From: Gracilimonas sp.
Lineage (GTDB): Bacteria > Bacteroidota > Rhodothermia > Balneolales > Balneolaceae
Assembly (NCBI RefSeq): GCF_017641085.1
Contig: NZ_JAEPPI010000001.1
Location: 620,001 to 684,000 of the forward strand
DNA: 64,000 bases
Direction of reading: 5' to 3'
Part shown: piece by piece, positions 39,665 to 57,637 of the stretch
Numbering within the stretch: position 1 is the first letter of the stretch
How the letters are laid out: the number at the start of each line of letters is the position of its first letter
The notes under the pieces: generated by a model
What the model was told of the DNA's origin: nothing
The model's database searches: none
What the model saw: only the letters and a program-made list of their open reading frames with translations
Translations under genes and position numbers: made by a program

Positions 39665-40002
39665 TATTTATACCTGAAAGCCTAAATCTATACCCTTAAA
39701 TCAAACTACACGAAAGTAAACAAGGGGCAGATATTTTACTTGTTAGAATCCATTAATCTGAGTGCTTTCCCACCTCCGGCTTTTCATCTTTATAAAAGGT
39801 TTCCATCCTTGGCAGGGTATTCATAAGTGCTTGAGATAATATTTCCCGGCAATTCTCTTAAGGAATTTTCCAAACATCCGATAACAGGCAGAGCGGTATG
39901 TGCGAAATCAGATTAAAACTGACGCCAACTGCTTCAATAATACTTTAATACAGAGGTTGATGGCAGATTCCATTCTGCCTTACCCACACACAGGAGTAAG
40001 TA
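39665..40002 (+). other. 338-bp promoter region of the chemosensory operon
   Basis: No gene. Contains the sigma-28-like promoter at 39858-39884 and, nearer the start, a small hairpin GGCAGA/TCTGCC (39962-39979) in the expected leader. A clear RBS (AGGAG) precedes the ATG at 40003. Confidence 0.6.
39858..39884 (+). promoter_or_regulatory. FliA/sigma-28-type promoter, CheA operon
   Basis: TTAAGGAA (39858-39865), N11, TCCGATAA (39877-39884). The FliA consensus known from enterics is TAAAGTTT-N11-GCCGATAA; the -10 matches at 7 of 8 and the spacing is exact. It lies 118 bp before the first gene. Confidence 0.65.
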
Positions 40003-40449
40003 ATGAGTAAGATAAAAGCACTTGTTGTTGATGATTCAAAAATTATGAGGAGCCAGGTAAAGCGAGCTCTTGATCAACTGTTGATTGCTGATTTTGAATT
40101 TGAAGAAGCAATGGATGGAGAGGATGCACTCGGGAAATTCAACGATGACATTGATATGCTGTTTGTTGATTGGAACATGCCCAAAATGACCGGCGTTGAA
40201 CTCGCCCGTGCTATTCGGGACAAAGGCTATGCTGATATCCCCATTATCATGGTAACAGCCGAAAAATCGATGGGTAAAGTGGATAAGGCTTTAAATGAAG
40301 GCGGTGCCAACGAATATATCACCAAGCCTTTTACAGCCGATAAAATGTCGAAGGCTATAAGCCGGTACATCGATGAGGAAGGAAACATTAAGAAAGAAGA
40401 AGCTGAAGAAGAGAAGAAGAGCTTCTTTAGCAGCATTCTAAATGCCTAA
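40003..40449 (+). CDS. CheY-like response regulator
   Basis: 148 residues: one receiver domain plus a short charged tail (about 122-148). Acid pocket VVDDS, phospho-Asp in FVDWNMPKMTG, Thr in MVTAE and Lys in ITKPFT are complete. First gene of the chemosensory operon. Single-domain receivers in such operons act as output CheY or phosphate sink. Confidence 0.9.
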   Translation: MSKIKALVVDDSKIMRSQVKRALDQLLIADFEFEEAMDGEDALGKFNDDIDMLFVDWNMPKMTGVELARAIRDKGYADIPIIMVTAEKSMGKVDKALNEGGANEYITKPFTADKMSKAISRYIDEEGNIKKEEAEEEKKSFFSSILNA

Positions 40450-40460
40450 AGGGAGTTGTC

Positions 40461-40958
40461 ATGATCGCAGAACAGCTAAGCAAAGCAGATAAAATCCCGG
40501 GCGAGATCGTTGACATCGTACAGGAATCAGTTATTAATACCTTTACTTCCATTTGTGGAGGTACTCCCGAATGTGTGGAGCAATTGGATCAAAGCGGCCC
40601 ACTGAATGGCATCATCGGGAACATTGCGGTATTCAATGCCGAGCACACCTTTTCGTTGATGATCGCTATACCAAAAGAAACGGCATTGCAAATTTCGAAT
40701 TCTTTTCTGGGTATGGAGCTTCCTTTTGAAAGCCACGATATGGGAGATTTAATTGCAGAGATATCAAATATCCTTGCAGGAGAAGTAGCTGCTAATATTG
40801 AGCGGGTGGGTTTTCGAGGTCAGTCTTCGCTGCCAACAGCAACCCGTGGAAGTGACCTGACGCTATTTATGCCAAACAAACCCCCTTCAGCCAAAATGAA
40901 ATTTTCCAGCGACTGCGGCGAGTTTATGCTGAACATGGCGCTGAGTGAATCCAGATAA
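40461..40958 (+). CDS. cheX: CheX/CheC-type CheY-P phosphatase
   Basis: 165 residues. The helix DLIAEISNILAGEVAANIE contains the ExxN pair (EISN) that CheX/CheC/FliY use to dephosphorylate CheY-P. One such motif is visible, as in CheX. It would reset receivers encoded around it. 11 bp after the previous gene with a GGGAG RBS. A second CheX-like gene lies at 45757. Confidence 0.83.
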   Translation: MIAEQLSKADKIPGEIVDIVQESVINTFTSICGGTPECVEQLDQSGPLNGIIGNIAVFNAEHTFSLMIAIPKETALQISNSFLGMELPFESHDMGDLIAEISNILAGEVAANIERVGFRGQSSLPTATRGSDLTLFMPNKPPSAKMKFSSDCGEFMLNMALSESR

Positions 40959-40973
40959 AACGGTAATAATCCA

Positions 40974-43511
40974 ATGAGCAATAAAGACCAACTTATCAAA
41001 GACCTCGAATCCATTATCCGTTTGCTGGCAGATGTGTGGCCGGCCGACAGAGAAAATGTGGCCGTAGCCGGTGCTAAGTTCGAAGAGGTTACCAATAACG
41101 TCGAGAACAATTTCGGGCAATTTCAGAAACTGATTGATTTGTCGTGGAAGGGCATTAAGCACCTTTACGAAAAAGATGACTACTTCATCATGGTTAAAAC
41201 AGCCACGATGCAAGCCATCAATACAATAAGGGAGTATGTGATTGAAGAAGGGGATATCAAAGTAGAAGACTTTGAAAAGGCCTATGACGAGTTGGAGAAA
41301 TCACTGAAGGGAGGCTCGGAATCGGCCGACACCGTTATTGAATTGGATGAAGAAAAAGTAGAGGAAATCAAAAAGAACGGGGAGTCGAAGCAAAGTGCTA
41401 AAGAGGAAAAACCGGCAAAAGAATATACGCTGAATGACCTGGCTGGCTTCCTGATCACTCTCGAGGAGGAGTCGGTTACCGGCGAAGACCTTCAGAAACT
41501 GGATGAGTTGGTTTCCTACATAGTTAAGCATGCGGATGAAGCTATTGCCACTCCGCTAAAAGAAGCTATGGCTGAAGTTGAAGCCAGCGGTGGAGCAAAA
41601 GGCTGGCTGAAAATTGTATCGGATAAAACCGAGCAGGCTATTGAAGTGGAGGCTCAAAAAGAATGGGATAATCCCGGAAATACGGATGACCCTGTCGGTA
41701 CTGAGAGCCCGATGGAGGATGAGCAAACTACAGTGGAGGAGCCAGTTGAAGAACCGGCAAACGAAGAAGAGTCAGAAAGCAAAGAGGTTGTGTCCTCAGA
41801 AGTATTTCACATCCCGGATGATATAGAAATGGCTCTGGTCGGAGAGTTCATTACCGAGTGCTCCGAACTGATTGAAATGGCAGAAAGTGCGCTTCTTGAC
41901 CTGGAAGAATCTCCGGATGATGAAGAATTGATCAATACCGTATTCCGTGCTTTTCATACAATCAAAGGAACATCTGCTTTTATGGGGCTCGACCCGATCT
42001 CGGAGTTCACCCACTTTGTAGAAACCTTGTTAAGTATGGTGCGCGAAGGTGATTTACCCTTCGACCGGGCATGTGCCGATATCAACTTTGAGTCGATCGA
42101 TATTCTGAATAAAATGCTAAAGGTTGTGGAAGTTGCTGAAGGGGGCGATCCGCTTCATAAACCGGCACAGTACGACAGCATGATTTCTATTCTGCATTCC
42201 ATTTCGGAAGAAGGAAAAGAGCCGGCCAAGGCCCTCGAAGAAATCCGGGGGAAACAAGCGGCAGCTCCGGTTACTAATCCTGCTGTAGAGGCCATAACCG
42301 ATTCAGGGGATGCTGATACCGACAACGCTGTGGTTGATAAAATAACGGCTAAATCCGAGTCAGAATCATCGGTGAGGGTAAGTGTAAGCCGCCTCGATCG
42401 TCTGATAGATATGGTTGGAGAGCTGGTTATTGCGCATTCTGTTGTAGCACAGGATAAAGCTATCCCCAAAGATTCAGAACTTCAGAAAAAAGTAAATCAC
42501 GCAACCAAAATACTTCGTGAGCTACAGGACACGAGTTTAACCCTGCGTATGGTTCCGCTTAAAGCGACCTTCCACAAAATGAACCGTCTGGTTCGGGATC
42601 TTTCCAGAAAAGCGGGCAAGCAGGTGAAATTCACCACCTTCGGAGAAGACACTGAGATTGACCGAAACATGGTGGATGTAATTAATGAGCCTCTGATTCA
42701 CATGCTGCGAAACTCTTTGGATCACGGCATTGAAGAGCCGGAAGAGCGACTTAAAAGCGGAAAAGGAGCTAACGCCGAACTTTCACTTTCTGCATCGCAA
42801 GAGGGTGGTAAAGTGGTCATTGAAATTAAGGATGACGGCCGTGGCATTAACAAAGATGTAATCCTCAACAAGGCCATTGAAAAAGGCCTGGTTGATCCGG
42901 AGAAAAAACTCACCGAAAAAGAAATTTACAATCTCATATTCCTGCCCGGTTTTTCATCGGCGGAGAAAGTTACGGACTTATCCGGTCGAGGAGTGGGAAT
43001 GGATGTGGTTCGTCGTTCTATCGAGCAGCTGCAAGGTAAGGTGGATGTGAGTTCAGAGCTGGGTAAGGGAACAACCATCACCATTGAGCTGCCCTTCACT
43101 TTGGCTATTACCGATGGGATGCTGGTTCGTGTAGGTACACAGCGATTTATCGTTCCGACAATAAACATAGACATGACCTTCCGCGCTAAAGAATCGGACA
43201 TGTTTACCATGATGGGCAACTCCGAGCAGGTAAATTTCAGAGGACAGTCCGTTCCTGTGATAAGGCTGCATGAGCAGTTTGAGATTAACGGCGCCAAAGA
43301 AAGTTTACTGGAAGGCACTCTGCTGATCATAAAGAACAACAATCGCCGGTATGCCCTTTTGGTTGACGAGGTGATTGGCCAACAACAACTGGTGGGTAAG
43401 TCAATTCACATGCTTACCAAAATGTCGCACATATCGGGCGGTGCCATTCTTGGGGACGGACGTGTTGGTCTGATTCTGGATACAGCCGCCCTGATGGATT
43501 CTGCTGCGTGA
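40974..43511 (+). CDS. cheA: Chemotaxis histidine kinase CheA with unusual N-terminal extension
   Basis: 845 residues. A helical and acidic extension (about 1-285) of unknown fold precedes the HPt domain (about 290-395), whose phospho-His is in FRAFHTIKGTS (His328). No P2 (CheY-docking) domain is apparent: a short linker leads to the dimerisation helices (RLDRLIDMVGELVIAHS), then the HATPase (MLRNSLDHGIE, DDGRGI, GRGVGMDVVR), and a CheW-like domain to the end. It phosphorylates the local receivers and CheB proteins. The GTG/ATG of cheR follows at once. Confidence 0.93.
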   Translation: MSNKDQLIKDLESIIRLLADVWPADRENVAVAGAKFEEVTNNVENNFGQFQKLIDLSWKGIKHLYEKDDYFIMVKTATMQAINTIREYVIEEGDIKVEDFEKAYDELEKSLKGGSESADTVIELDEEKVEEIKKNGESKQSAKEEKPAKEYTLNDLAGFLITLEEESVTGEDLQKLDELVSYIVKHADEAIATPLKEAMAEVEASGGAKGWLKIVSDKTEQAIEVEAQKEWDNPGNTDDPVGTESPMEDEQTTVEEPVEEPANEEESESKEVVSSEVFHIPDDIEMALVGEFITECSELIEMAESALLDLEESPDDEELINTVFRAFHTIKGTSAFMGLDPISEFTHFVETLLSMVREGDLPFDRACADINFESIDILNKMLKVVEVAEGGDPLHKPAQYDSMISILHSISEEGKEPAKALEEIRGKQAAAPVTNPAVEAITDSGDADTDNAVVDKITAKSESESSVRVSVSRLDRLIDMVGELVIAHSVVAQDKAIPKDSELQKKVNHATKILRELQDTSLTLRMVPLKATFHKMNRLVRDLSRKAGKQVKFTTFGEDTEIDRNMVDVINEPLIHMLRNSLDHGIEEPEERLKSGKGANAELSLSASQEGGKVVIEIKDDGRGINKDVILNKAIEKGLVDPEKKLTEKEIYNLIFLPGFSSAEKVTDLSGRGVGMDVVRRSIEQLQGKVDVSSELGKGTTITIELPFTLAITDGMLVRVGTQRFIVPTINIDMTFRAKESDMFTMMGNSEQVNFRGQSVPVIRLHEQFEINGAKESLLEGTLLIIKNNNRRYALLVDEVIGQQQLVGKSIHMLTKMSHISGGAILGDGRVGLILDTAALMDSAA

Positions 43512-43525
43512 ACAAGGATGAAACT

Positions 43526-44365
43526 ATGAACACATTCACACAGAGCGCATTTTCTTCGTCAGTTTCATCCGTCAAATTAAAGGCAGGAGATTTTAAACGG
43601 GTCAAGGATTTACTTTATGAATACTGCGGAATATTTCTGCAGGATGGTAAAGAGGCGCTCGTCCAAAGCCGGCTGATGAAACGGATGCGAAAGCTGGGGA
43701 TCGGAAGTTTCTCCGAGTACCTGGATTTCATCGAAAGGCCCGAATCGGGAGGGGAGTTCTTGTCTTTTGTGGATGTTTTGACGACCAATAAAACCCATTT
43801 CTTTAGAGAAGCCCAGCATTTTGAGTTCATCAAGAAGAACATCATTCCGACTATGGATGGCCAAAATGCAAAATGGTGGTCGGCCGGTTGTTCTACCGGA
43901 GAAGAACCAGTAACTACGGCCATAACACTGCATGAAGCACGGAGGGCAACGTCGTGGTCGTCCGTAAAAATACTGGCTACAGATATATCAAGAGAGGTGC
44001 TTAAGGTAGCAAAGAATGGAGTATATCCTTCAACGAGGATGAAGGATGTACCGGATTCCATTTGTCGAAAATACTTTGATGACATCGGCAATAATGAATT
44101 TAGGGTAAAAGAAAATATACAGAGCATGATTACCCACGGACGGCTGAATCTTATGGATGACTGGCCGCTGAAGGGAAATTTCCATGTAATTATGTGCCGT
44201 AATGTGATGATCTATTTTAACAGACAAACCCAGCAGGAAGTGGTACAAAAGTTTTATGACCAGCTTCAGCCGGGAGGGTTTCTGTTTTTAGGGCATTCCG
44301 AAAGTGTTTCATCAAATAATAAAGGATTCAAAAACTTGGCTCCTGCTGTGTATCAGAAAATATAA
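43526..44365 (+). CDS. cheR: Chemoreceptor methyltransferase CheR
   Basis: 279 residues from ATG 43526 (a GTG at 43508 overlapping the cheA stop is the alternative). SAM-binding GCSTGEEP and the catalytic-domain motif MCRNVMIYFN are present, with the N-terminal alpha domain (LLYEYCGIFL, RLMKRMRKLG). It methylates MCP glutamates, here probably the one MCP at 55859. No TPR extension. Confidence 0.92.
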   Translation: MNTFTQSAFSSSVSSVKLKAGDFKRVKDLLYEYCGIFLQDGKEALVQSRLMKRMRKLGIGSFSEYLDFIERPESGGEFLSFVDVLTTNKTHFFREAQHFEFIKKNIIPTMDGQNAKWWSAGCSTGEEPVTTAITLHEARRATSWSSVKILATDISREVLKVAKNGVYPSTRMKDVPDSICRKYFDDIGNNEFRVKENIQSMITHGRLNLMDDWPLKGNFHVIMCRNVMIYFNRQTQQEVVQKFYDQLQPGGFLFLGHSESVSSNNKGFKNLAPAVYQKI

Positions 44366-44376
44366 CAGAGTGTTAA

Positions 44377-44910
44377 ATGAGAAAAGTAGTAGGTGTTAGC
44401 GATTTAAAGGTTTCAGCCAACGTAAATGAGGAGATTATTACGCATGCGTTAGGTAGCTGTCTGGGTATTACAGCCTATGATCCGGTGGCAAAAGTAGGAG
44501 GGATGGTCCATGTAATGCTGCCCCTTGCCAAAGCAGATCGTGAAAAAGCCAAAGCCCGTCCGGCTATGTATGTGGATACCGGTTTCGGCCTGCTGTTGAA
44601 TGAGGTGTACGAACTGGGTGCACAAAAAAAGAATCTTGAAATTATTGTGGCCGGCGGTGCAAGTATGAAACAGAATCAGGATGATGATTACTTCAAGATT
44701 GGCAAACGAAATTTTACCGTACTGCGAAAGTTGCTTTGGAAGAATGGATTTATGATTACATCGCAGGATGTGGGAGGCAGTACTTCGCGCACCATGGTTT
44801 TGTCGCTGGCAGACGGGCAGGTAACCATTAACAAGCAGCCTCTGAATAATGTAAATCGGTCAACCGGTATTTCGGTAGGTGCAGCCTTTAACCATCAAGT
44901 AGCAATATAA
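44377..44910 (+). CDS. cheD: Chemoreceptor glutamine deamidase CheD
   Basis: 177 residues. Catalytic Cys in HALGSCLGITAYDP and His in GGMVHVMLP are in place, with GGASM downstream. It deamidates receptor glutamines and in Bacillus/Thermotoga also works with CheC. It starts 11 bp after cheR. Confidence 0.92.
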   Translation: MRKVVGVSDLKVSANVNEEIITHALGSCLGITAYDPVAKVGGMVHVMLPLAKADREKAKARPAMYVDTGFGLLLNEVYELGAQKKNLEIIVAGGASMKQNQDDDYFKIGKRNFTVLRKLLWKNGFMITSQDVGGSTSRTMVLSLADGQVTINKQPLNNVNRSTGISVGAAFNHQVAI

Positions 44911-44921
44911 GAGAGGTTATT

Positions 44922-45344
44922 ATGGGACTTAATGTATTAATAGTGGACGATTGTCAGGTAATGCGGATGGTAATTCGCCGTACCGTAGAGCTTTGTGATT
45001 TCGATATCAATGAGATAGTTGAGGCTGAGAATGGTAGGCAGGCACTGGACTTGGTTCGTGAGTATGAATTTGGGTTAATCATTGCCGACCTGAATATGCC
45101 GGTTATGACCGGAGCTGAGATGCTGGCTCATATTAAACTGGACCCTGCCACCTGCCGCATTCCTATTCTCACAGTTTCTGCGGAAAGTAATGGCGAAAAA
45201 ATCGAGATCGTAGAAGAGTTAGGCACCAATTTCTTGCATAAACCTTTTACGCCGGAAATACTTCGCAACAAAATATTAAAGTTGCTAGGAAAAGAATCGA
45301 TAACAACCGAAGAGACTGATTATTTGGTAAATGGGGGAATATAA
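44922..45344 (+). CDS. CheY-like response regulator
   Basis: 140 residues, single receiver with complete site: IVDDCQ, phospho-Asp in IADLNMPVMTG, Ser in TVSAES, Lys in HKPFT. RBS AGAGAGG before the ATG. Paralogous to the next gene and to that at 48407. Confidence 0.9.
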   Translation: MGLNVLIVDDCQVMRMVIRRTVELCDFDINEIVEAENGRQALDLVREYEFGLIIADLNMPVMTGAEMLAHIKLDPATCRIPILTVSAESNGEKIEIVEELGTNFLHKPFTPEILRNKILKLLGKESITTEETDYLVNGGI

Positions 45345-45368
45345 ACCGTAACTGTTATGGGAGTTCAT

Positions 45369-45779
45369 ATGAAAAATATATCGATTAATAACGTACTGGT
45401 AATTGAAGACGAACCTGCAATTCGCATACTTCAGAGAGTTTTGTTGCGAAGAAGCAGATTCAACGTGGGTGATATCTTTGAAGCGGCCAACGGCATCGAG
45501 GCAATCGACATTATGAGCAGGAATAGTATAGATCTGATTTTGACTGATATAGACATGCCGGTTATGAACGGAATCGAATTTCTGAGCATCATTCACAACC
45601 ATCACAAGTTCAAAGATATACCTGTGGTTGCCGCTACTTCAGAATCGGGAGAACAGTTACTAAACATGCTGGCTTTCTGGGGGCACGGATACATCAGAAA
45701 ACCCCTTCGGCAGTCTATGCTTGAACAAGAAATATCAAAATTTTATGGGATCAACAATGAGTACTACTTACACGGATAA
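45369..45779 (+). CDS. CheY-like response regulator
   Basis: 136 residues from the ATG at 45369, which is preceded by GGGAG; an ATG at 45357 is the alternative. Receiver with VIEDEP, phospho-Asp in LTDIDMPVMNG, and IRKPLR, where the Lys is followed by Pro-Leu. The switch residue is Thr/Ser in AATSES. It overlaps the next gene by 23 nt. Confidence 0.87.
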   Translation: MKNISINNVLVIEDEPAIRILQRVLLRRSRFNVGDIFEAANGIEAIDIMSRNSIDLILTDIDMPVMNGIEFLSIIHNHHKFKDIPVVAATSESGEQLLNMLAFWGHGYIRKPLRQSMLEQEISKFYGINNEYYLHG

Positions 45780-46230
45780 AATCCACGATATCGCCGTAAA
45801 TACATTCGAGATTACCTGCTACATGTTTCCGTTGGAAGAGTGGGAAATGGAAGATGCCGACATGCTCGAAAAGCCGGATGGTTCATCCCGATCGGTAGTG
45901 CATTTTGACGGCGCTGCCAACGGAGGAATGGTGATCGATGCTTCAGAAGACCTGCTGGAAGCTATTGCTGCCAATATGCTGGGGGTTGATGAAGCTTCAC
46001 AAGAAGAAAAAGAAGGGGCCCTCTGCGAAATTGCGAATATCATATGCGGAAATACAGTACCGCTTTTTGCCAGGAATGAGAACATCTGCTATATCCGTCC
46101 TCCCCGAATTGCAAAACCGGAAGAAGACCTGGATTCAATTTTTCTAAATATGCATCACGAGAAACTGCAGGTTTACCTCGACGAGGGCGTTGCAGATATC
46201 TCCATCTATTATGATGCAGAGGAGCAGTAA
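45757..46230 (+). CDS. Second CheX-like phosphatase
   Basis: 157 residues from ATG 45757 (MSTTYTDKIHDIAV); the longer frame from 45721 would overlap more of the receiver gene. The helix ALCEIANIICGN carries ExxN (EIAN) as in CheX. It is more acidic than the first CheX and probably acts on a different receiver (inference). The stop overlaps the cheB start (TAATG). Confidence 0.77.
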   Translation: MSTTYTDKIHDIAVNTFEITCYMFPLEEWEMEDADMLEKPDGSSRSVVHFDGAANGGMVIDASEDLLEAIAANMLGVDEASQEEKEGALCEIANIICGNTVPLFARNENICYIRPPRIAKPEEDLDSIFLNMHHEKLQVYLDEGVADISIYYDAEEQ

Positions 46231-47297
46231 TGATCAAAGTTCTTATCGTTGATGACTCGGCTGTAGTCAGGAAACTGCTCACCGAAGAATTAAATAAGCA
46301 AAAGGATATTGAAGTAGTTGGTACGGCTATGGATCCTTATGTAGCCCGGGAAAAAATTATCCAGCTGAAGCCGGATGTACTGACTCTTGACCTGGAAATG
46401 CCCCGTATGGACGGCCTTTCTTTTTTGGGAAAACTGATGAAGCATTTCCCCATGCCGGTGGTGGTGGTAAGTTCGCTGACCCCAAAAAACAGTGCCAATG
46501 CATTAAATGCTCTCCATCTTGGAGCAGTAGATGTGATTTGTAAACCGGGTTCAGCCTATTCAACCCAGAATATTTCTCAGGATATTGTAAAATCAATTCG
46601 GGTGGCATCCGTCGCTCGTTTCGATAAGCACATGGAAACCGTTCGGTTTATGCAGTCGGCCCAGAAGACAACGGATCAACCGGGATTATCCGGTCTTCAG
46701 CATACTACCAATAAATTAATTGCAATAGGAGCCTCTACAGGAGGGACCCGGGCTCTTGAAGCTGTTTTAACTGAACTGCCTGCCAACATTCCGGGTATTG
46801 TGATCACCCAGCATATGCCACCGGTATTCACCAAGAGTTTTTCTGAACGTTTGAACAGTATTTGCAGGATTAATGTAAAAGAGGCGGAAGACGGAGATTT
46901 GATTAAGTCGGGGCAGGCTCTGATTGCCCCGGGCAGTTTTCACATGCTGGTAGAAAAAACAAGTGCTAAATATTATGTGCGAATAAAATCGGGGCCTCCG
47001 GTTCATCATCAGCGACCAAGCGTGGATGTAATGTTCAATTCAGTAGCTAAATCAGCGGGACTGAATGCGATGGGGGTAATTTTGACCGGAATGGGAGCAG
47101 ACGGTGCAAGCGGACTTTTAAATATGAAAAATGCGGGTGCCCATACCATTGCCCAGGATGAAGCAACATCAGTCGTATATGGGATGCCTAAAGAAGCTGT
47201 AAAACTGGGAGCTGCAGAAGAGGTTTTACCGCTGCAGTCTATACCCCGGGCCATTGTTAAACATATGGCCCGTAAAATGGCCGAACCGGTTTCATAA
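46230..47297 (+). CDS. cheB: Protein-glutamate methylesterase CheB, copy 1
   Basis: 355 residues. Receiver (1-120; VDDSAVVRK, phospho-Asp in LDLEMPRMDGL), linker, and methylesterase domain with the triad Ser in GASTGGTRALE, His in TQHMPPVFT and Asp in TGMGADGASG. It removes methyl groups from MCP glutamates when phosphorylated by CheA. Followed at once by a second complete CheB. Confidence 0.93.
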   Translation: MIKVLIVDDSAVVRKLLTEELNKQKDIEVVGTAMDPYVAREKIIQLKPDVLTLDLEMPRMDGLSFLGKLMKHFPMPVVVVSSLTPKNSANALNALHLGAVDVICKPGSAYSTQNISQDIVKSIRVASVARFDKHMETVRFMQSAQKTTDQPGLSGLQHTTNKLIAIGASTGGTRALEAVLTELPANIPGIVITQHMPPVFTKSFSERLNSICRINVKEAEDGDLIKSGQALIAPGSFHMLVEKTSAKYYVRIKSGPPVHHQRPSVDVMFNSVAKSAGLNAMGVILTGMGADGASGLLNMKNAGAHTIAQDEATSVVYGMPKEAVKLGAAEEVLPLQSIPRAIVKHMARKMAEPVS

Positions 47298-47316
47298 CAA
47301 GGAATGGAGGGCTGGC

Positions 47317-48390
47317 ATGATTAAGGTTCTGGTTGTTGACGATTCTTTATTTGATAGAAAACTTATTTCGTTTTTACTGAATAAGCAGGAAGATATAGAA
47401 GTGGTTGGCGTGGCCGAAGATCCTTATGAAGCCCGCCAGCAATTGGCAGAGCTTAAGCCGGATGTTATCACCCTGGATATGCTGATGCCCCGTATGGATG
47501 GACTTACTTTCCTGAAGAAATTAATGAAGCATCTGCCTTTGCCCGTGGTTGTAGTAAGCTCAGTTACTCCGGCAAACAGCAAAAGAGCCTTGCGCGCCTT
47601 AGCCGCTGGTGCCATCGAAGTGATTTCCAAGCCGAAAGCGGATTATGGCGCCAAAGATATGGAGAATGATTTAGTAAGCGCGGTGCGGACGGCCGCAGTA
47701 GCCAACGTATCGATTCAAGATTCTCCCGGCATTCTACATGGAACAATAGATAAGACTTCCACAGATCAATCTGGTGCAGAAAAACCAACTGTAGGCTCAA
47801 AAGAAAAACTGATTGCTATAGGGTCCTCAACCGGAGGTCCGAAAGCCCTGGAATATCTGCTTCCGCAATTTCCTGAGAATACTCCCGGTGTGGTTATTGT
47901 ACAGCATATGCCTGAGGTTTTTACCAAACAGTTTGCAAGCCGATTGAATACCCTGTGCAGGATGGAAATTGCGGAAGCTAAAGACGGTGATATAGTACAC
48001 CGGGGCAAAGTGTTAATTGCCCCCGGCAACAGACATATGATTCTCGAGGAATCTGAAACGGGTTATCAGGTTAGAATTATAGATGCACCGAAAGTTAATC
48101 ATCATCGCCCAAGCGTGGATGTGCTATTTGATTCAGTAGCTAAAGTGGCTGAAGGTAATACTACGGGCGTAATTCTAACGGGTATGGGAAATGATGGAGC
48201 TAAAGGACTTCTTCAGATAAAGAATAAAGGCTGCTACACCATAGCACAGGATGAAAAAAGTTCAGTCGTGCACGGCATGCCAAAAGAAGCGGCTAAAATT
48301 GGAGCGGCTGTTGATATCCTTCCACTAAAAGAAATAGCAGGTGCGATTCTGCATCATGTAAAACCAAAGAAATTGGAACTTATAGCGTAA
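47317..48390 (+). CDS. cheB: Protein-glutamate methylesterase CheB, copy 2
   Basis: 357 residues from ATG 47317, preceded by a strong RBS (GGAATGGAGG); a frame from 47254 is a shadow of copy 1. Receiver with VDDSLFDRK and LDMLMPRMDGL; triad GSSTGGPKALE, VQHMPEVFT, TGMGNDGAKG. Clearly a tandem paralogue of copy 1, and both look active. Confidence 0.93.
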   Translation: MIKVLVVDDSLFDRKLISFLLNKQEDIEVVGVAEDPYEARQQLAELKPDVITLDMLMPRMDGLTFLKKLMKHLPLPVVVVSSVTPANSKRALRALAAGAIEVISKPKADYGAKDMENDLVSAVRTAAVANVSIQDSPGILHGTIDKTSTDQSGAEKPTVGSKEKLIAIGSSTGGPKALEYLLPQFPENTPGVVIVQHMPEVFTKQFASRLNTLCRMEIAEAKDGDIVHRGKVLIAPGNRHMILEESETGYQVRIIDAPKVNHHRPSVDVLFDSVAKVAEGNTTGVILTGMGNDGAKGLLQIKNKGCYTIAQDEKSSVVHGMPKEAAKIGAAVDILPLKEIAGAILHHVKPKKLELIA

Positions 48391-48406
48391 CTAAACGGAG
48401 ATAGAA

Positions 48407-48787
48407 ATGGCAATTAACATACTTGTGGTTGACGATAGTGCTGTAATGCGAAGTATGATCATTAAAACAATTAAGAACACCGGTATTGAGGTGGGGGAAG
48501 TTCACCAGGCAAGCAACGGTGCGGAAGGGCTGGAAGTGGTTGACAACAACTGGCTCGACCTGCTTTTCATTGATGTGAACATGCCGGTTATGGATGGAAT
48601 GGAAATGCTGGCCCAGGTGCGAAAAAATCCGGTCACTATGGATATGCCGGTACTTATCGTTTCTACGGAAAGCAATAACGAGCGCATCAAAATAATTGAT
48701 GAGCAATATGCCGGTTTTGTTCACAAACCTTTTACCCCGGAAGTGCTGAAAGAAAAAATTCTGGATGTATTAGGTGTGATGCATTAA
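48407..48787 (+). CDS. CheY-like response regulator
   Basis: 126 residues, last gene of the operon. VDDSAVMR, phospho-Asp in FIDVNMPVMDG, Ser in IVSTES, Lys in HKPFT. RBS CGGAGAT before the ATG. Close to the receiver at 44922 in its motifs. Confidence 0.9.
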   Translation: MAINILVVDDSAVMRSMIIKTIKNTGIEVGEVHQASNGAEGLEVVDNNWLDLLFIDVNMPVMDGMEMLAQVRKNPVTMDMPVLIVSTESNNERIKIIDEQYAGFVHKPFTPEVLKEKILDVLGVMH

Positions 48788-49296
48788 TGGGCTGACGCTT
48801 TCAGTTGCTGTTTTTGATATCTGGTTATGTTATTAGCAAAGGGCTGGCCCCCTTCGCTTGTTTACTGGAAGAGATGGTTGCCGGTGGGTAGATGGCGGTC
48901 TAGGTAAATATGGTTTACGGTATGCAAGCGAGTCGTTTACTGCATCGCGGCGAGCATACTTTAATGATATTTTTTGTACACCGGAAAATTTTCTCCAAAA
49001 AATGCTTACCAATTCCACTCTTTTTTGTGGCTATAGGATCTAATCTGCCAATCTAAAATTCATTCAGGTACTCGAGAGTGCTGCACTATTTTTAGAGTTA
49101 CAGGTTACCAGAGTAGGTGAAAATACCTAAGAGCCCTTCATACAAATTTAGGTTAAAAGGCTGATTCATTATTCAAGAGTAGCATCTACCTTTTAATATT
49201 AAAATTTTCTAATGAAATGATTGGGGTCTTTTTCTTCACAAGTAAGGAGAAAAGCCGATAAGCAAATCCAATCCTCCATATACCTATGAAGAAAAC
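48788..49296 (+). other. 509-bp intergenic region before the PAS/GAF kinase
   Basis: No convincing gene. A weak hairpin AAGGG/CCCTT at 48839-48854 may end the che operon. An open frame at 48858-49043 has no RBS and no family likeness. A perfect GCCGATAA is at 49254-49261. Confidence 0.5.
49235..49261 (+). promoter_or_regulatory. Possible weak FliA-type promoter, PAS/GAF kinase
   Basis: A perfect -10 GCCGATAA (49254-49261) lies 35 bp before the kinase start. At exact N11 spacing the -35 is TTCACAAG, five of eight positions matching TTAAGAAA. Confidence 0.4.
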
Positions 49297-49767
49297 ATGA
49301 AAACGGAAGACCAATTTTTAAGAAAACTGAATACTGACTTTTTAAAGTCAGCTTTTAAATCTATTCCCTTTGCGGCAGTTGTTACAAATGCAGATCGTGA
49401 GATTATTGCTGTGAATCCGGCTTTTGTGGATATCTTTGGTTTTTCGAGAGAGGAGGTGTTCGGAGAGAAGACAGCCATGCTGTATGCCGATAAAGAGGAT
49501 TTCAAGCAAACCGGGAAAACCAAATACAATAAGGCTTCTGATGTTCAAGAGGCTTCATATGAACTGGCATATCGTACTAAAGATGGGGAAGATTTCCCGG
49601 CAGAAACGGTAGGAAGTGTTGTAAAGAATGATAAAGGTGATACGATTGGCTATTTAGGACTTATTAAAGACCTGAGAGCAGAAGCACAAAGAGGCAAACC
49701 TGCAACAACTCACCGATCAGCTTCATTTGTTAGTAAAGGTGATGAGTCAGGATACCTACGATTATGA
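49297..49767 (+). CDS. PAS domain protein, N-terminal piece of a frameshifted kinase
   Basis: 156 residues. A PAS domain (about 20-130; [29 protein letters not shown], then GYLGLIKDL) is complete. The last 27 residues are out of frame: reading the next frame from 49682 gives [21 protein letters not shown], a natural linker into the downstream GAF kinase. One extra A in the AAA at 49688-49690 explains both. The true product is probably a single PAS-GAF-PAS-PAS-kinase. Confidence 0.75.
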
Positions 49768-52477
49768 TCAGCAGATTAACCAATCCCTTAAACTTACCTC
49801 GGAACTTTTAGGGCTGGAGCTTGGAATTATAAGTTCTGTTAAAGATCAAACCTATACCGTTAAGTATTTTTACCCTGAAGACACAGGCCTTGAAAAAGGC
49901 ATGGAGTTTGAATTGGGTAATACCTACTGCGATATCATGCTGAAAGCCGATGAAGTACTCGCGATCAACCATATGGGGGAATCAGAATACTGCCACCATG
50001 TTTGTTATGAGCAGTTTAAGCTGGAAAGTTATATAGGTGTTCCCGTTTACGTGGATGGGGACTTGTTCGGAACATTGAATTTTTCCAGTGAAGAAAGGAG
50101 AAGAGAGTTTACCCAAGGTGATAAAGACACCATAACTTTGCTTTCGGAATGGATCGGCTCTATCCTGGAAAAGAAAGAAATTGAAGATGAGTTAAGTGAA
50201 AGCCGGAAGTTGTATGAGCTTCTGGCCAACCATTCTTCGGATATGGTTTGCTTGCACGAACCGGATGGCACCTATATTTATGCTTCTCCGGTTGTAGAAG
50301 AGCTGTTAGGATTTACTCAGGAAGAAATAATAGGAATGAATCCGTATTCACGGTTTCATCCGGATGACATAGAAAGGATCCAGAAAGAGTCTCACGAAAA
50401 AGCCAAAACCGGGGAACAGGTTAAGAGTTTTACTTACCGGACCATGAAAAAAAACGGGGAGTATATATGGCTTGAAACGAATACCGAACCCGTTTTAAAT
50501 GAAAGAGGAGAGGTAGTAAAGCTCCGTACGGGTACCCGGGAGGTTACGGAAAGAAAACGCTTGGAGATATTGCTGAAGGAAACCAACAAGTTAGCGGCTG
50601 TTGGCGGATGGGAATTATATCTGGATACCGGTAAATCTTATTGGACTGAAGAAGTTTATAATATCCATGAATTACCCTTGGGTACAGACACGAATCTGGT
50701 AGATGGCCTGAGTTATTTTCCGGGAGAGGCTCGCAATATTATTGAGAATGCTGTTAACCATACAGCAGAAACAGGGGAAGGTTATGATCTGGAACTGCCT
50801 TTTGTGACTGCCAAAGGAAATGAAAAGTGGGTAAGGGCCATCGGTTTAGCTGATAAAAAATCGGATGGAACTATCAATAAGCTATATGGGGTATTTCAGG
50901 ACATTTCGGATCGTAAAAAGATGGAACTGGAGTTGCTGAAGGCAAAAGAGGATGCGGAAGCAGCCAATAGGGCTAAAAGTGAGTTCATAGCCAATATAAG
51001 TCATGAAATCCGAACCCCAATGAACTCCATTCTGGGCTTTACCGAACTGCTGCAAAAAAGAGCTACTACCGAAGTGAGTAAAAAGTACCTCGAAAACATC
51101 TCAAGCAGTGGTAAAATGCTTTTGCAGCTGATCAACGATATCCTTGACTTGTCAAAAATTGAAGCAGGTAAGCAGGAGGTCAACCTTAACCCAGTGAATG
51201 TAAAAGCATTTATCCGGGAGATCAGAGACATCTTTTCGGTAAAAAGCGAACAAAAGAAAATTGATCTTGATGTGATCATAGAAGAAGGAATTCCAGATTC
51301 TCTGCTTCTGGATGATGTTCAGCTTCGGCAGATTTTGTTCAACCTGGTTGGTAATGCTATAAAGTTTACCAATCATGGATACGTGACGATTGAGCTTGGT
51401 GCCAACCTCGAACAGAGGGATCTTAGTAAAGTGGACCTGATTATCAAGGTGAGTGATACCGGTATTGGAATCCCACAGGATAGAATTGATGGAATTTTCA
51501 ATGCTTTTGAGCAACAAGACCGGCAGATCTCTGATCAATTTGGTGGAACAGGGTTAGGTCTTTCAATCAGTAAGAAACTGATTGAAACGTTGGGCGGAAC
51601 TATTTCGGTGGAAAGTGAAGTGGGTAAGGGAAGTTGCTTCACAATTACAATTCCGAAAGTGGTTACCTCGTCAGTGCTTGTGGAAGAAAAAGCTGTTGAT
51701 ATACTGATGGAAGATATTCTTTTTGAGGAAGCCATGGTTCTGGTGGTAGACGACATTGTAACAAACCGCGAGCTGGTTGCTGAATTTTTGCAAGATCATC
51801 CGATGACTATTCTACAAGCCGGGGGCGGTAATGAGGCTATTCAAAAAGTTAAAGAAAACGACATTGATCTAATCCTGATGGATATCAAAATGCCCGGAAT
51901 TGACGGTGTGGAAACCATGAAAATTATCAAGCGGCACAATCCGAAGGTTAAAGTACTGGCGCTTACGGCTTCAGGGTTTCTCGGGTATGGGGAGGAAGTG
52001 AAAGAATTAGGTTTTGACGGTTATCTGCGAAAACCAATTAGTTATAAAAGCCTGGTACGTAATTTGAGTGAATTCCTGCCTCATTCATCAACCGATGATC
52101 AACTTACATTCGAAAACACCGGGGCAACAGATTCTTCTGAGGAAGCGGGAATATCTGTCTGGAATCCGGAGCAGGTAAAAGCATTTTCAACTACATGGCA
52201 AGCCAGACTTAATAACCTGTTAGAAGAAATTGACAGAGAAGCTTTAATGATGGACAGCTGTGAAGTTTTTGCTGAGGAGCTTAAAAAAGCCGGTTCGGAA
52301 TTAAATATTACAGAATTAGAGATTTTAGCCGATAACATCATCGAATATGCCTTCAGCTTTGATATCGAAGGCATTAAGGAATCAATAATAAAATATGATC
52401 AGGTGATACAAACGAATGTGCCGATCATAACCAACGATAAGGAATCAATAGAAGTTTATGAAAGATCAAAGCAGTAA
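49727..52477 (+). CDS. Hybrid histidine kinase (GAF-PAS-PAS-HisKA-HATPase-REC), 5' part displaced by frameshift
   Basis: 916 residues as read, but likely lacking its true N-terminus. Domains are GAF (about 10-150), PAS (165-285), PAS_3 (295-400), HisKA with [10 protein letters not shown] (His426), HATPase ([26 protein letters not shown]), REC with phospho-Asp in [11 protein letters not shown] (about 717), and a C-terminal helical region (about 800-905) that may be a degenerate HPt lacking a clear His. It overlaps the following receiver-kinase gene by 20 nt; the two probably work in a relay. Confidence 0.88.
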
Positions 52478-53600
52478 TTCATCCAAAGGATTTGTACTTA
52501 TTGTAGATGATATATCAAAGAACCTTCAACTGCTGGGCACCACGCTGAGGGAAGCAGGATATAAAGTTGCAGCGGTATCAAAATCGGAGCAGGTGTTGGA
52601 TAGTGCTTTAAAATACCGCCCAGATCTGATTTTGCTGGATGTTATGATGCCCGGTAAATCAGGGTTTGAAGTGTGTGAAGAACTAAAAGCTCATTCAGAT
52701 CTGAAGCACATACCCGTGATTTTCCTGACGGCTAAAGTAGAGCAGGAAAGCATAGTAAACGGACTGAATTTGGGAGGTTCCGACTATGTGACCAAGCCTT
52801 TTAATACCCAGGAATTGCTGGCAAGGGTAGATACGCACATTTCCCTGAAGCTTTCAAAAGACAAGCTGAAGGAACAGAACGAAAAGTTGAATGAATTAGG
52901 TCTTATGAAAGACCGGATTTATTCGGTGATAGGGCACGACCTTAGAGGGCCGGTAAACGGAATAAGTGGAGTAATTAACTTACTGCTTAGCGACCTGGAA
53001 AATATGGATGAGGAGAAGCTTAAGAAATTTCTGACCCTGATTAATCAGTCCTCGTCTAATTTATGGAATTTGCTTACCGACTTACTGAGCTGGGCCCGTG
53101 TGCAAAGCAAAGAAATGAAGGTAAATCGCACCGATTTTTATTTGCTTTCAGCTATTGAAGAAGACATCAAGATGATGGCTTTTAATGCAGAAAAGAAAGG
53201 GATCAACATAAATATTTACCCGGAAGTGGATGTAGAAGTACATGCGGACAAAACATTTGTTCGCACCATCTTCAGGAACTTTTTATCTAATGCACTCAAA
53301 TTCAGCGATAAGAAAGGACACAGTATTGATGTGCATATAGAGGTTAAGGGCGACCTCAATATTTCGGTTAAAGATTATGGAATCGGAATGTCTGAAGAAA
53401 CAAAAGAGCGGCTTTTTAAATTGACTCATCCTAAGAGCGATGCCAAAATGAATGCAAATGGTGCAGGATTTGGGCTGTTACTTTGCAACGAGTTAGCCAA
53501 GTTACACGGTGGTGAAATTAAAGTGAAGAGTGAGGAAGGAAATGGCTCCACGTTTACTTTGGCGATCCCACAATCGGAGCAAGGGGTTATAGCCGCATAA
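52458..53600 (+). CDS. Receiver-histidine kinase (REC-HisKA-HATPase)
   Basis: 380 residues. N-terminal receiver (VDDISKNLQ, phospho-Asp in LLDVMMPG about 61, TAK, TKPFN), then HisKA with VIGHDLRGP (His about 160), and HATPase ([31 protein letters not shown]). The order receiver-then-kinase suits a relay that takes phosphate from the upstream hybrid kinase and feeds another protein. Ends before a strong terminator. Confidence 0.9.
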
Positions 53601-53741
53601 CCAACCATACTTTGGCGAACTTGAGTTCTGATTAATAGAAAAGTGATTCCCGTACGGCCGATAATCCATTTGCCGCAGTTGAATCGAATTAAAAGCCTAT
53701 CTCGAAAGTTAGATCCCAAACGCAGTTTTGACATTTATTTG

Positions 53742-53773
53742 AGCAGTAGGAAGAAATTTCTACTGCTTTTTTT
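53742..53773 (+). terminator. Rho-independent terminator of the kinase operon
   Basis: Perfect arms AGCAGTAG (53742-53749) and CTACTGCT (53760-53767) with a T-run to 53773. Confidence 0.9.
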
Positions 53774-53844
53774 ATATACAGATTGCACTGCAAGGGGTAC
53801 TAGGAAGGATAACTAAGTTTTATTAAAAAATTTTAAGAAAAAAC

Positions 53845-53871
53845 TTAAGAAAGCATTAGAGCTGCCGATAA
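53845..53871 (+). promoter_or_regulatory. FliA/sigma-28-type promoter, TonB-like gene
   Basis: TTAAGAAA (53845-53852), N11, GCCGATAA (53864-53871). The -10 is a perfect FliA match and the spacing exact. 65 bp before the ATG. Confidence 0.68.
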
Positions 53872-53936
53872 TGAGTTTAGAAATGCTAATACCTGAAAAC
53901 TTTTTCTATATCTATATCTAAAATTGAGGAAAACCC

Positions 53937-54368
53937 ATGCTTAAGAAATCAATACAACTATTTTCTTTTGTAATTGCCCTTGCGGTAGTAACGAGTGCAA
54001 ATGCCGAATCCATATCTGATTATGTTGAAAACACGGCTTTTGAAATAGCTGCTGATGACTCAGCTAAAATTTATGATGTAGTGGATCAGATGCCGGAGAT
54101 TGAAGGAGGTATCAAAGAAGTGTACAACAATATTAAATACCCCAGAGCTGCAATATCCGGACGGATTGAAGGGCGTGTTTTCGTAAAATTTGTGGTAGAT
54201 GAAAACGGAAACGTAAAAAACCCGACAGTCATCAAAGATATTGGTGCAGGCTGTGGAGAAGCCGCAGTAGAAGGTATTAAGAAAGTAAAGTTCACTCCCG
54301 GTAAATTGAATGGACAACCGGTTAAGGTGTACTATACGCTTCCGGTGAGCTTCAAGATAAATAGCTAA
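53937..54368 (+). CDS. Periplasmic protein with TonB C-terminal-like domain
   Basis: 143 residues. A cleavable-looking signal peptide (cleaved after ANA) is followed by about 25 linker residues and a TonB-C domain (EGGIKEVYNNIKYPRAA, GRVFVKFVVDENGNV, GEAAVEGIKKVKFTPG). True TonB keeps its N-terminal helix as a membrane anchor and has a long Pro-rich spacer; here both are absent. It may bind TonB boxes or other periplasmic partners without energising them (inference). Its promoter matches that of the chemosensory operons. Confidence 0.83.
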   Translation: MLKKSIQLFSFVIALAVVTSANAESISDYVENTAFEIAADDSAKIYDVVDQMPEIEGGIKEVYNNIKYPRAAISGRIEGRVFVKFVVDENGNVKNPTVIKDIGAGCGEAAVEGIKKVKFTPGKLNGQPVKVYYTLPVSFKINS

Positions 54369-54408
54369 AGAACTTAAGACTAAGACATAACATCCCCAAT
54401 AATTGGCT

Positions 54409-54447
54409 AAAAGCATTACTCTGACCAGGGTAATGCTTTTTTTATTT
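54409..54447 (+). terminator. Rho-independent terminator of the TonB-like gene
   Basis: Perfect arms AAAAGCATTAC (54409-54419) and GTAATGCTTTT (54430-54440) with a T-rich tail. Confidence 0.9.
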
Positions 54448-54501
54448 TATTTAAGGTTCCGCTTCAGGCCTTGGTGAACCATTTGTGTTCCTTTCTATAA
54501 A

Positions 54502-54618
54502 GTCATCCTGAGCGTAAGAAGGTATGAATGGGGCGGGGTGTTTACCGCGAAGGATCTGGGTTATGAAATGCTTGGTAAACATTTAATGGCTTAGATTCAT
54601 CGCTCCGCTCTGAATGAC
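54502..54618 (+). repeat. GTCATCCTGAGCG repeat, copy 1
   Basis: Begins GTCATCCTGAGCG and ends CGCTCTGAATGAC, whose complement is GTCATTCAGAGCG, so the ends are imperfect inverted repeats. The middle has CGCGAAGGATCTGGGTTATG and CTTGGTAAACAT, shared with the other two copies. Confidence 0.85.
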
Positions 54619-54751
54619 TATTGTGAAATTGAAGGAATCAGAACCACCAAGCGTCCTAAAAGATCTTGGAGCGTTCGCCGTGGAATAAAGCAACGGTACC
54701 GTGCAACGCTTGCAGTCCTTCGGACGCAGCAAGGTAGCTCCAGGCTACAGA

Positions 54752-54888
54752 GTCATCCTGAGCGCAGGAAAGTTTGAATGGGTCCGGTGTAAACCGCGAA
54801 GGATCTGGGTTATGACATGCTTGGTAAACATTTAATGGCTTAGATTCATCCAACCTGCTCCGGTTGGCAGGCGCTACGATTGGATAAC
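54752..54888 (+). repeat. GTCATCCTGAGCG repeat, copy 2
   Basis: Same start and core as copy 1, with an extra 27-bp insert (CCAACC...GGTTGG hairpin and GGCAGGCGCTA). The right end is degenerate (TGGATAAC for TGAATGAC). Confidence 0.82.
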
Positions 54889-54981
54889 TATCATGGTAAT
54901 CCTTGAATCCGTCTAATAAAGGTTCAAAATTATGAACCCTGATTTACTTGATTTACGGATTACCGTGATTCAAGTCAGCGA

Positions 54982-55119
54982 GTCATCCTGAGCGCAAGAA
55001 GGTTTGAATAGGGCTGGTTGTTCACCGCGAAGGATCTGGGTTATGACATGCTTGGTAAACATCTAATGGCAAGGTTCATCCAACCTGCTCCGGTTGGCAG
55101 GCGCTAAGCTCTGAATGAC
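54982..55119 (+). repeat. GTCATCCTGAGCG repeat, copy 3
   Basis: As copy 2, including the 27-bp insert, with an intact right end (CTCTGAATGACGG). Confidence 0.85.
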
Positions 55120-55188
55120 GGTGGGGAGAGTAAAGGTCAACAGGGGTAAACCTTCTCAAAAATACTTAGTCCCGCACATTAAAATCAT

Positions 55189-55215
55189 TTAAGAAAATCT
55201 CACCCTGTCCGATAA
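55189..55215 (+). promoter_or_regulatory. FliA/sigma-28-type promoter, cheW-mcp operon
   Basis: TTAAGAAA (55189-55196), N11, TCCGATAA (55208-55215). The -35 is identical to that of the TonB-like gene. 91 bp before cheW. Confidence 0.68.
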
Positions 55216-55306: not shown

Positions 55307-55819
55307 ATGGAAGAAACACTGGTTAAAGAAAAAGAGGCCGAAGAACTGGGCCATTTAATAGCTGGCGGAAAATTTCTCAGCTTCTTTTTAGGTAAAGAGG
55401 AGTACGCTATTGAAATTTTAAAAGTGCAGGAAATTATTGGCCTCATGCCGATTACTCCTGTACCCAAAATGCCGAAGTACATTCGCGGGGTGTTAAACCT
55501 TAGAGGTAAAATTGTACCGGTAATGAATCTGCGGCTTCGCTTTGAACTGCCGGCGGTGGAAGACACCGACGAGACCTGCGTGATTGTTGTGCAGGAGGAT
55601 GATTACCTGATGGGCGTGCTGGTAGATAAAGTATCTGAAGTAGCCGACATCAAGGACAATCAGATTGAGGAAGTGCCTTCATTTGGTGTGAAGGGAAACA
55701 GCGAATACCTGGCCGGTATTGGTAAAGTTAAAGAGTCTGTAAAGATGATCGTTGATATCCATAAAGTACTATTTGATGTACCTGAAGAAGTTTTGGACAC
55801 AAACGAGACCGCAGCTTAA
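55307..55819 (+). CDS. cheW: Coupling protein CheW
   Basis: 170 residues. A CheW domain from about 22 (FLSFFLGKEEYAIEILKVQEIIG, PKYIRGVLNLRGKIVPVMNLR) to about 155. Couples the MCP encoded next to it with CheA, which is 12 kb upstream. The N-terminus has a short acidic leader. It is the only free-standing CheW gene in the window. Confidence 0.93.
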   Translation: MEETLVKEKEAEELGHLIAGGKFLSFFLGKEEYAIEILKVQEIIGLMPITPVPKMPKYIRGVLNLRGKIVPVMNLRLRFELPAVEDTDETCVIVVQEDDYLMGVLVDKVSEVADIKDNQIEEVPSFGVKGNSEYLAGIGKVKESVKMIVDIHKVLFDVPEEVLDTNETAA

Positions 55820-55858: not shown

Positions 55859-57637
55859 ATGTCATCGATTAATAACTATTTAAACAACATCACCGGAGGA
55901 GGCAGTGCTTCGGAAGGTAGCTGGACTATTGGGAAAAGAATTTTCTTCCTGACCGCTTCCGCAGCGGTAGTAACACTGATACTCGGAGCCATTGCTTTAT
56001 TCTCCCTGAGTAAAATTCAGAGTAACACCACTTCTTTATCTGATATTTCATTTAATGAGTGGGGAACTGCGGCAGCGTTTGAGACAGCAGTTCGAAAAGC
56101 AGGCTACGAACACCTGCAGTTCACAAATACCAATGACGTTTCCTATATGGAAACGGCTCTTTCCAGATTCGAAAAAATCTATGGCGAATACGGAGAGTTT
56201 GAAGAGTATGTAGAAGCATACGATCTGCCGGTATTGGAAGAAAACATGGTGGGCCTTAAAGAGGTAATTGAAAGCTATGAAAGCAACCTTCAGGCATATC
56301 TTGATGCTACCCTGGCACTGGAGAATAATACCGATCCGTCTGAACTGACAAAAGTGAGTAATGCCTTATTCGAATCAGAGAGAAATGCTGCTATCGATTA
56401 TCAGGAGCTGCTGGATCGTTCAGTTGCAATCAATCAGGCTGCCGAAGATGGTGCACGAGCCCTTGCGAGCGACACTCAGACTACCGTAGATAATTATGTA
56501 TGGATTATTAGTGTAGTAGCGGTGCTTTCGGTATTAGGAGTATTGGCATTCGGGTTCTTCATTGGAAGGTCGATCAGCAATACACTGAAAAGTATCATAA
56601 ACAGACTGAAGAGCGGTTCTGAGCAAGTGAACGCTTCTTCTGAACAGCTGTCCGGCGCCAGCCAGCAATTGGCAGAAAGTGCCAGCGAGCAGGCGGCAAG
56701 TCTTCAGGAAACCACATCTTCTCTTGAAGAAATGGCAGCTCAAATCAAGCAAACCGATGATAACTCAAGTCAGGCTGAACTGGCCATGGATGAGTCGAAG
56801 CCGTTGGTTGAAAATGGTGTACAGGCCATGCAGCGTATGGTTCAGGCCATGAATGAAATCAAGAGTTCTGCCCAGGAAACATCCAAAATCATTAATACGA
56901 TCGATGATATTGCTTTCCAAACCAACTTGCTTGCATTGAATGCTGCTGTAGAAGCTGCGCGGGCAGGAGAGGCCGGAAAAGGTTTTGCTGTGGTGGCCGA
57001 AGAAGTACGTAACCTTGCTCAGCGAAGTGCGGAAGCCGCTCAGAATACATCAGAGCTGATCCAGAAGTCGCAGGCAAGTTCAGATCGTGGTTCAAGTGTA
57101 GCCGAAGAAGTATCAGAAAACCTGAAAGCGATCGAGCAAAGTATCGCAAGCGTAAGCACGCTGGTTGTTGAAATTTCAGCGGCATCCAAAGAGCAGGCCG
57201 TAGGCATTGAACAAATGACCTCGGTAATGACTGAAATGGACAACGTGGTTCAGAACAACGCTTCTTCATCTGAAGAATCAGCCAGTGCTGCCGAAGAGCT
57301 TTCTTCTCAGGCTAATGAACTGAATACCATTATTGGCGAGTTGGTCGGACTTGTTGGCGGCGGAAGCTCAGCTAATATCGGAAACGGAACATTCATTCAG
57401 CAGTCGCAACAGCAGTCACCCATCAGCAAAACCCTTGCAAACGGTTTCGTTAATGGAAACGGCAAAGGCAAAGGCCATAACGGACACAGCAATGGTAACG
57501 GGAACGGGAATGGACATCACAACGGAAATGGATCAAACAGAGCTCATGCAAACGGGCATTCCAACGGTTCTTCCAAAAGAGTAGAAGCGCACGAATTAAT
57601 CCCTTTCGAGGATGATGATGACTTCAGTGATTTCTAG
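55859..57637 (+). CDS. Methyl-accepting chemotaxis protein with Asn/Gly/His tail
   Basis: 592 residues. Transmembrane helices at about 29-50 and 213-235 enclose a helical periplasmic sensor domain. The second helix leads, after about 30 residues and no complete HAMP domain, into the methylated coiled coil; the hairpin tip is [21 protein letters not shown] (about 348). Behind the coiled coil lies a low-complexity tail (about 520-575, repeats of NGNG and HNGNG), ending [13 protein letters not shown]. The ligand is unknown. Confidence 0.92.

Follow-up and report, generated by a model that had tools for sequence, protein, structure and literature searches.

Three bipartite elements in a 64,000-nucleotide stretch of Gracilimonas sp. 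DNA (G000:C1:620001-684000, hereafter the window, from a genome of 3,489,758 bases, or 3.49 Mb, in 7 contigs) are very probably, judging from sequence and conservation, class 3 flagellar promoters of the FliA/sigma-28 type, with the fliA gene lying about 25 kb beyond the window. A pattern scan of the window returned them with 0 mismatches to TTAAGRAA-N11-KCCGATAA at 39858, 53845, and 55189, each with an exact CCGATAA -10 box and a spacer of 15 bp between TTAAG and CCGATAA. The distances from their ends to the ATGs at 40003, 53937, and 55307 are 118, 65, and 91 bp, respectively, and both positions and distances agree with a preliminary description of this DNA (Table 1). The type of switch is known; the lineage-wide -35 variant and the TonB-like member of the regulon go beyond the routine.

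Table 1. Coordinates of the promoter elements and associated genes in the window
Feature	Coordinates	Strand	Basis
Predicted sigma-28 promoter of the che operon, TTAAG-N15-CCGATAA	39858..39884	+	Exact match; kept in 16/16 orthologues
che operon: CheY-like, CheX-like, CheA, CheR, CheD, further receiver proteins, two CheB	40003..48787	+	ORFs
Doubtful fourth site, perfect -10, poor -35 (TTCAC)	49235..49261	+	Pattern scan
Predicted sigma-28 promoter of the TonB-like gene	53845..53871	+	Exact match; own site in 10 genomes including this one
Small TonB_C-domain protein, 143 aa, signal-like N terminus	53937..54368	+	PF03544, 73.3 bits
Predicted sigma-28 promoter of cheW-mcp	55189..55215	+	Exact match; strict cheW site in 7 relatives
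cheW	55307..55819	+	Sole NCBIfam match CheW, 129 bits, below cut-off of 260
Methyl-accepting chemotaxis protein	55859..57637	+	Best NCBIfam matches are chemoreceptors, below cut-offs

Promoter elements and flagellar genes of the genome

The signal in the window is the set of exact matches (n = 3) and not the matches with up to 3 mismatches to the element, of which there are 8 against 3.2 expected from shuffling. Genome-wide, the strict pattern TTAAG-N15-CCGATAA has five matches, none in an ORF of at least 110 codons, and none in the reversed control. Beyond the three window sites, these comprise one ending 7 bp upstream of motA and one 108 bp upstream of a HisKA_2 histidine kinase gene on a different contig. 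The looser pattern TTAAG-N{15,17}-CGATAA (spacers of 14 to 16) gives 15 genome matches versus 9 in the control and gains the flagellin gene, a second, cut flagellin gene at the end of contig C3, a histidine kinase gene at C1:502532, and several intragenic matches; the flagellin element carries a single -10 change (ACGATAA). The preliminary description measured the sites against the right enteric FliA consensus (TAAAGTTT-n11-GCCGATAA; PMC2859248, partial text), and the N11 spacing and the -10 agree with that pattern at all three. The likeness to the FliA promoters of Escherichia coli thus covers the -10 box, the spacing, and the type of regulon (che, motA, and flagellin).

A genome scan and a search for a fliA homologue had been proposed at the outset: one strict match precedes motA, and a fliA gene is present at C1:708984-709754, where TIGR02479 scores 226 bits (curated cut-off, 189.6). 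Genes identified by eye as flhA, flhF, and flhG adjoin it. Flagellar genes occupy two stretches of contig C1, the first from about 689.3 kb (flgB-like, about 5 kb beyond the window) to 724 kb and the second from 743 to 755 kb; their labels are mostly by eye, with profile matches for FliA, flagellin/FlgL-type proteins, FliS, and MotA (the last below its cut-off). The flagellar genes that the window lacks therefore sit just outside it. A candidate at C1:743484-743864 looks FlgM-like by eye but has no Pfam or NCBIfam match, and FlgM was not otherwise found. In the che operon, CheX was labeled by Pfam, the receiver proteins by eye, and CheA, CheR, CheD, and CheB by NCBIfam, with only the two CheB proteins passing the curated cut-offs.

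A fourth site, at 49235, fared less well. Its -10 is perfect (GCCGATAA), as had been described, but its -35 (TTCAC) has two mismatches to TTAAG, and we rejected it as a proven sigma-28 promoter; lying 35 bp before 49297, it is on its own a doubtful candidate and may have arisen by chance. The region that follows (49297-53600) codes for a PAS, hybrid kinase, and receiver module, and in three relatives (G040, G022, and G051) its place is taken by one or two receptor-like genes, as read by eye. At the place equivalent to 49235 in G040, two receptor-like genes stand behind TTAAC/TTAAT-N15-CCGATAA.

On the basis of the observed sites, their conservation, the fliA gene, and its co-occurrence with them, we infer FliA binding, transcription starts, late expression, and the freeing of FliA by an anti-sigma factor. 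RNA polymerase carrying FliA would read the three elements, with region 2 of the sigma factor contacting CCGATAA and region 4 the TTAAG -35 located 15 bp upstream. The Che proteins, the cheW-receptor pair, the stator (motA), flagellin, and the TonB-like protein would thus be made together, late in flagellar assembly.

Conservation, enrichment, and alternative readings

Relatives were considered at the level of the family Balneolaceae, the order Balneolales, and the class Rhodothermia. A PF00669 match (flagellin or FlgL type) was found in 23 of 57 family genomes (a single weak one in G036), and the first che gene (CheY-like) in 16, all of them among those 23. Upstream of every one of these 16 che genes lies TTAAG-N15/16-[N]CGATAA, with a spacer of 15 in 15 genomes and of 16 in one. 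FliA exceeds the cut-off in 15 of the 16 che-positive genomes; the profile search did not find it in G036, which is 82% complete. The same search found only a primary-sigma-like match in G041, G047, G055, G234, and G235, the first three of which are flagellin positive and 79 to 89% complete. A promoter scan blind to -35 position 2 covered 48 family flagellin starts, of which 9 were duplicates and 7 lacked a CGATA site within 260 bp; the remaining 32 distinct promoters comprise 26 with TTAAG, 5 with TAAAG, and 1 with TAAAT. Flagellin relatives from named genomes (43 loci, mostly Balneolaceae or Balneolales, e.g., Gracilimonas mengyeensis) gave 26 TTAAG and 2 TAAAG from 51 starts, after removal of 20 duplicates, 2 starts without CGATA, and 1 without T.AA. 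Genes for flagellin, MotA, CheW, and receptor-like proteins are also preceded by the element in relatives.

Across 80 genomes, we counted matches to TTAAG-N15-CCGATAA and TAAAG-N15-CCGATAA against reversed controls. The che-positive family genomes (n = 16) gave 94 versus 15 for TTAAG and 44 versus 31 for TAAAG, and the flagellin-positive family genomes without the che gene (n = 7, FliA found in 4) gave 15 versus 6 and 3 versus 5, respectively. Family genomes without FliA or flagellin (n = 13, with G002 and G008 scored for flagellin only) gave 8 versus 11 and 28 versus 20. The corresponding counts were 19 versus 3 and 4 versus 7 in order and class genomes with FliA (n = 16), and 0 versus 2 and 11 versus 1 in those scored without it (n = 7). 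Outside the class, genomes with FliA (n = 13) gave 10 versus 11 for TTAAG and 20 versus 11 for TAAAG, a weak enrichment (p 0.075), and the one genome without FliA gave 0 versus 0 and 2 versus 0. In genus g17, whose genomes have FliA without flagellin (n = 7), the counts were 9 versus 10 and 3 versus 10. Flagellated genomes of the class thus show TTAAG enrichment, and g17 does not. Against expectation, 10 of the 11 TAAAG matches in the FliA-less order and class genomes come from a single genus, g24 (G069, G089, and G171; control, 1), and G089 and G171 have a near-identical TAAAG-N15-CCGATAA site in common.

These data bear on the other readings of the element. The preliminary description had left open whether the sigma factor is flagellar and encoded elsewhere or devoted to this sensory system. 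With fliA and flagellar genes close by, a sensory-only factor is unnecessary, and we rejected it. That a separate alternative sigma factor reads the element, its flagellar link being coincidental, could draw on the departure of the -35 from the textbook TAAA and on a second TIGR02479 match at C1:404983 (128 bits). However, region 4.2 of that protein reads TRERVRQI, which we take to be the form seen in primary sigma factors, matches of equal rank (124 to 136 bits) occur in 24 of 24 genomes of one profile search, and flagellin and motA have the element upstream as well; we regard a separate factor as highly improbable.

A slightly larger but still very small probability attaches to the element being a binding site for a transcription factor that coregulates motility genes rather than a promoter. 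Its position before genes and its strong conservation would fit any activator site, but the distance between the boxes, 15 (sometimes 16) bp, is the spacing of the sigma-28 consensus, and enrichment largely tracks the presence of FliA, though not in g17. Least credible, and rejected for the three strict sites, is a chance resemblance picked out by eye: the surplus of inexact window matches and of looser genome matches is modest, but the five strict genome matches against none in the control and the conservation in 16 of 16 orthologous positions bear out the original judgment that the sites are hard to explain by chance. The FliA/sigma-28 reading is supported by a fliA gene above the cut-off, and by the element's recurrence before flagellin, motA, cheW, and receptor-like genes.

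The -35 variant and the FliA recognition helix

TTAAG agrees with the enteric TAAAG in four of the first five -35 letters and differs at position 2 only. Among class genomes outside the family, the blind flagellin scan gave T at this position in 10 of 10 resolved cases, namely TTAAG in 7 and TTAAA in 3 (G218, G228, and G185, where TAAA with 14 bp is an alternative reading). In this count, the sites of G147 and G121 were added from the strict genome-wide pattern scan; those of G059, G192, and G214 came from another tandem flagellin copy, the first having no good site; G064 had no resolved flagellin promoter; and one poor copy in G225 (TTAAC with AGATA) was left out. Same-phylum FliA promoters outside the class (e.g., G106, G141, and G093) share the FliA family, the -10 box, and the flagellin target, but T is found in none of the 11 resolved (9 A, 1 G, and 1 C). 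Several of these 11 have an imperfect -10, G096 is tied with a second site, G075 and G112 are counted though they have no FliA match, and G193 and G118 gave no promoter.

The FliA proteins divide along the same line. Region 4.2 reads AR.SQ[IL][VILM][GAT] in 47 of 47 class proteins, a paralogue with EARVSQIRR (G131_f7b) being left out of the count, whereas [STG]R..Q[IK]H, with a histidine after Q[IK], is found in 13 of 13 proteins from outside the class. Because the helix and the -35 both differ across one branch of the FliA tree, that separating class from nonclass proteins (100/99, in a tree with several long branches), their match amounts to a single event. T at -35 position 2 is the usual form in the class and goes with a class-wide change in the FliA recognition helix.

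Exceptions within the class weaken a strict code between helix and -35. The g4 genomes and two named genomes (L218 and L220) have TAAAG before flagellin, although TTAAA with 16 bp is an alternative reading of some g4 sites. The FliA proteins of G004, G023, and G033 and of the two named genomes retain the class helix, and A at position 2 is therefore tolerated, since these exceptions keep the class helix wherever FliA was found.

Precedent in E. coli bears on how distinct the -35 is. The preliminary description called it distinct, which holds as a lineage habit; TTAAG-N15-CCGATAA itself is nevertheless already the FliA-dependent promoter of E. coli ycgR (Table 2 of PMC4183435, partial text), a gene whose expression drops from 104 to 0 when fliA is mutated. 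By our tally of the ChIP sites in the same partial text, 25 of 52 have T.AA, with 17 A, 5 C, 2 G, and 1 T at position 2. T is accordingly rare (1/25) yet functional in E. coli and usual in the Rhodothermia. When the next position is changed, to TATAG, the aer promoter of E. coli retains 26 of its 223 units of activity (PMC2859248, partial text). A Fisher test on position 2 (67 T/8 A versus 1 T/17 A in E. coli) gives a p of 1e-11, a value that overstates the case by treating related promoters as independent. Literature searches covering titles and the beginnings of abstracts listed no description of a TTAAG-N15-CCGATAA promoter rule in Balneolales or related bacteria. It is a usable rule for annotating motility regulons in these organisms, and here a naturally occurring substitution of one promoter letter accompanies a helix change, a combination that could be tested in vitro.

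FliA/WhiG-type sigma factors are kept in some nonflagellated bacteria, as in the case of Streptomyces WhiG and chlamydial sigma-28. Genus g17 is similar in that 7 of the 8 genomes seen have FliA over the cut-off with no flagellin match; it differs in offering only candidate sites before receiver and secreted-protein genes, with no genome-wide enrichment. Three g17 genomes (G017, G043, and G199) have similar TTAAG-N15-CCGATAA sites ahead of a receiver-domain gene, and in G017 such a site also precedes a gene for a small secreted protein (L259, L260, and L254-L258; genomes G017, G043, G049, and G199). Because TTAAG matches in g17 equal the control, it is similarity between species that singles these sites out.

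Regulon membership and the TonB-like gene

Of the 94 strict sites, 86 belong to thirteen relatives (the che-positive genomes except G020 and G036); 20 of these are at flagellin, che, or tonB-like places already counted, 6 were left out, and 60 were examined further, the genes behind them being labeled mostly by eye and in some cases by Pfam. Thirty-seven precede motA (6), cheW (7; G040, G022, G051, G018, G046, G048, and G035), receptor (12), cheB (2), fliS/fliT-like (4), flagellin-type (1), flhB (2), tonB-like (2), and che receiver (1) genes. Another 11 lie before other genes: GAF or kinase genes (4; G046, G048, and two in G035, some domains being below the cut-off), SCO1/SenC (2; G022 and G048), a TonB-dependent receptor (G046), a dCache protein, two similar secreted proteins (G022 and G048), and a homologue of window gene 57726. 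The last 12 are before unrelated or unknown genes or are intragenic (L270, L292, L294, L301, L304, L308, L310-L314, and L316). In two relatives (L320 in G010 and L321 in G026), the strict site is about 370 bp upstream of flhB, the first gene of the run flhB-flhA-flhF-flhG-fliA in the window's genome, an arrangement through which FliA might exert feedback on its own synthesis. In seven genomes (L100, L262, L268, L274, L279, L281, and L289), exactly 7 nt separate the end of the motA site from the ATG, and in five of them GGA lies in this gap; a sigma-28 transcript of motA would therefore be leaderless or nearly so.

The TonB-like gene is an unexpected and likely member of this presumptive flagellar regulon. 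Its product matches the TonB_C domain well above the cut-off of 24.6 bits, and IG.GCG.AA is invariant across eight aligned homologues. A gene-specific TTAAG-N15/16-[N]CGATAA was found in 10 flagellated genomes, including this one and G036. In five g6 genomes, the gene is second, 0 to 116 bp behind a receptor-like gene having such a site; hence, 15 of the 16 che-positive genomes have it with its own or the receptor gene's site, and only in G001 was it not found in the che region read. The structure model is confident from about residue 41 onward; the first 40 residues, modeled with low confidence, are hydrophobic and signal-like by eye and leave no space for a long linker of the kind that, behind an N-terminal membrane anchor, spans the periplasm in TonB energy transducers. 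As a guess, the protein may be a periplasmic partner of the receptor or the motor. More tentatively than the promoter assignment, and as a possibility we do not favor outright, a joint change might have occurred across the class, in which the region 4.2 helix, going from H-S to V/I/L-G, gave up its customary histidine and the -35 went from TAAAG to TTAAG. The regulon would also have gained a TonB-domain protein that is linked to a receptor and probably periplasmic; through it, chemotaxis may be coupled to outer membrane uptake or to the energy of the envelope.

Between the TonB-like gene and cheW (about 54500-55110), an intergenic repeat (TCATCCTGAGCG... AAGGATCTGGGTTATGA and similar) is present three times by eye, and similar stretches lie beside fliA (L008, about 1240-1440; also by eye).
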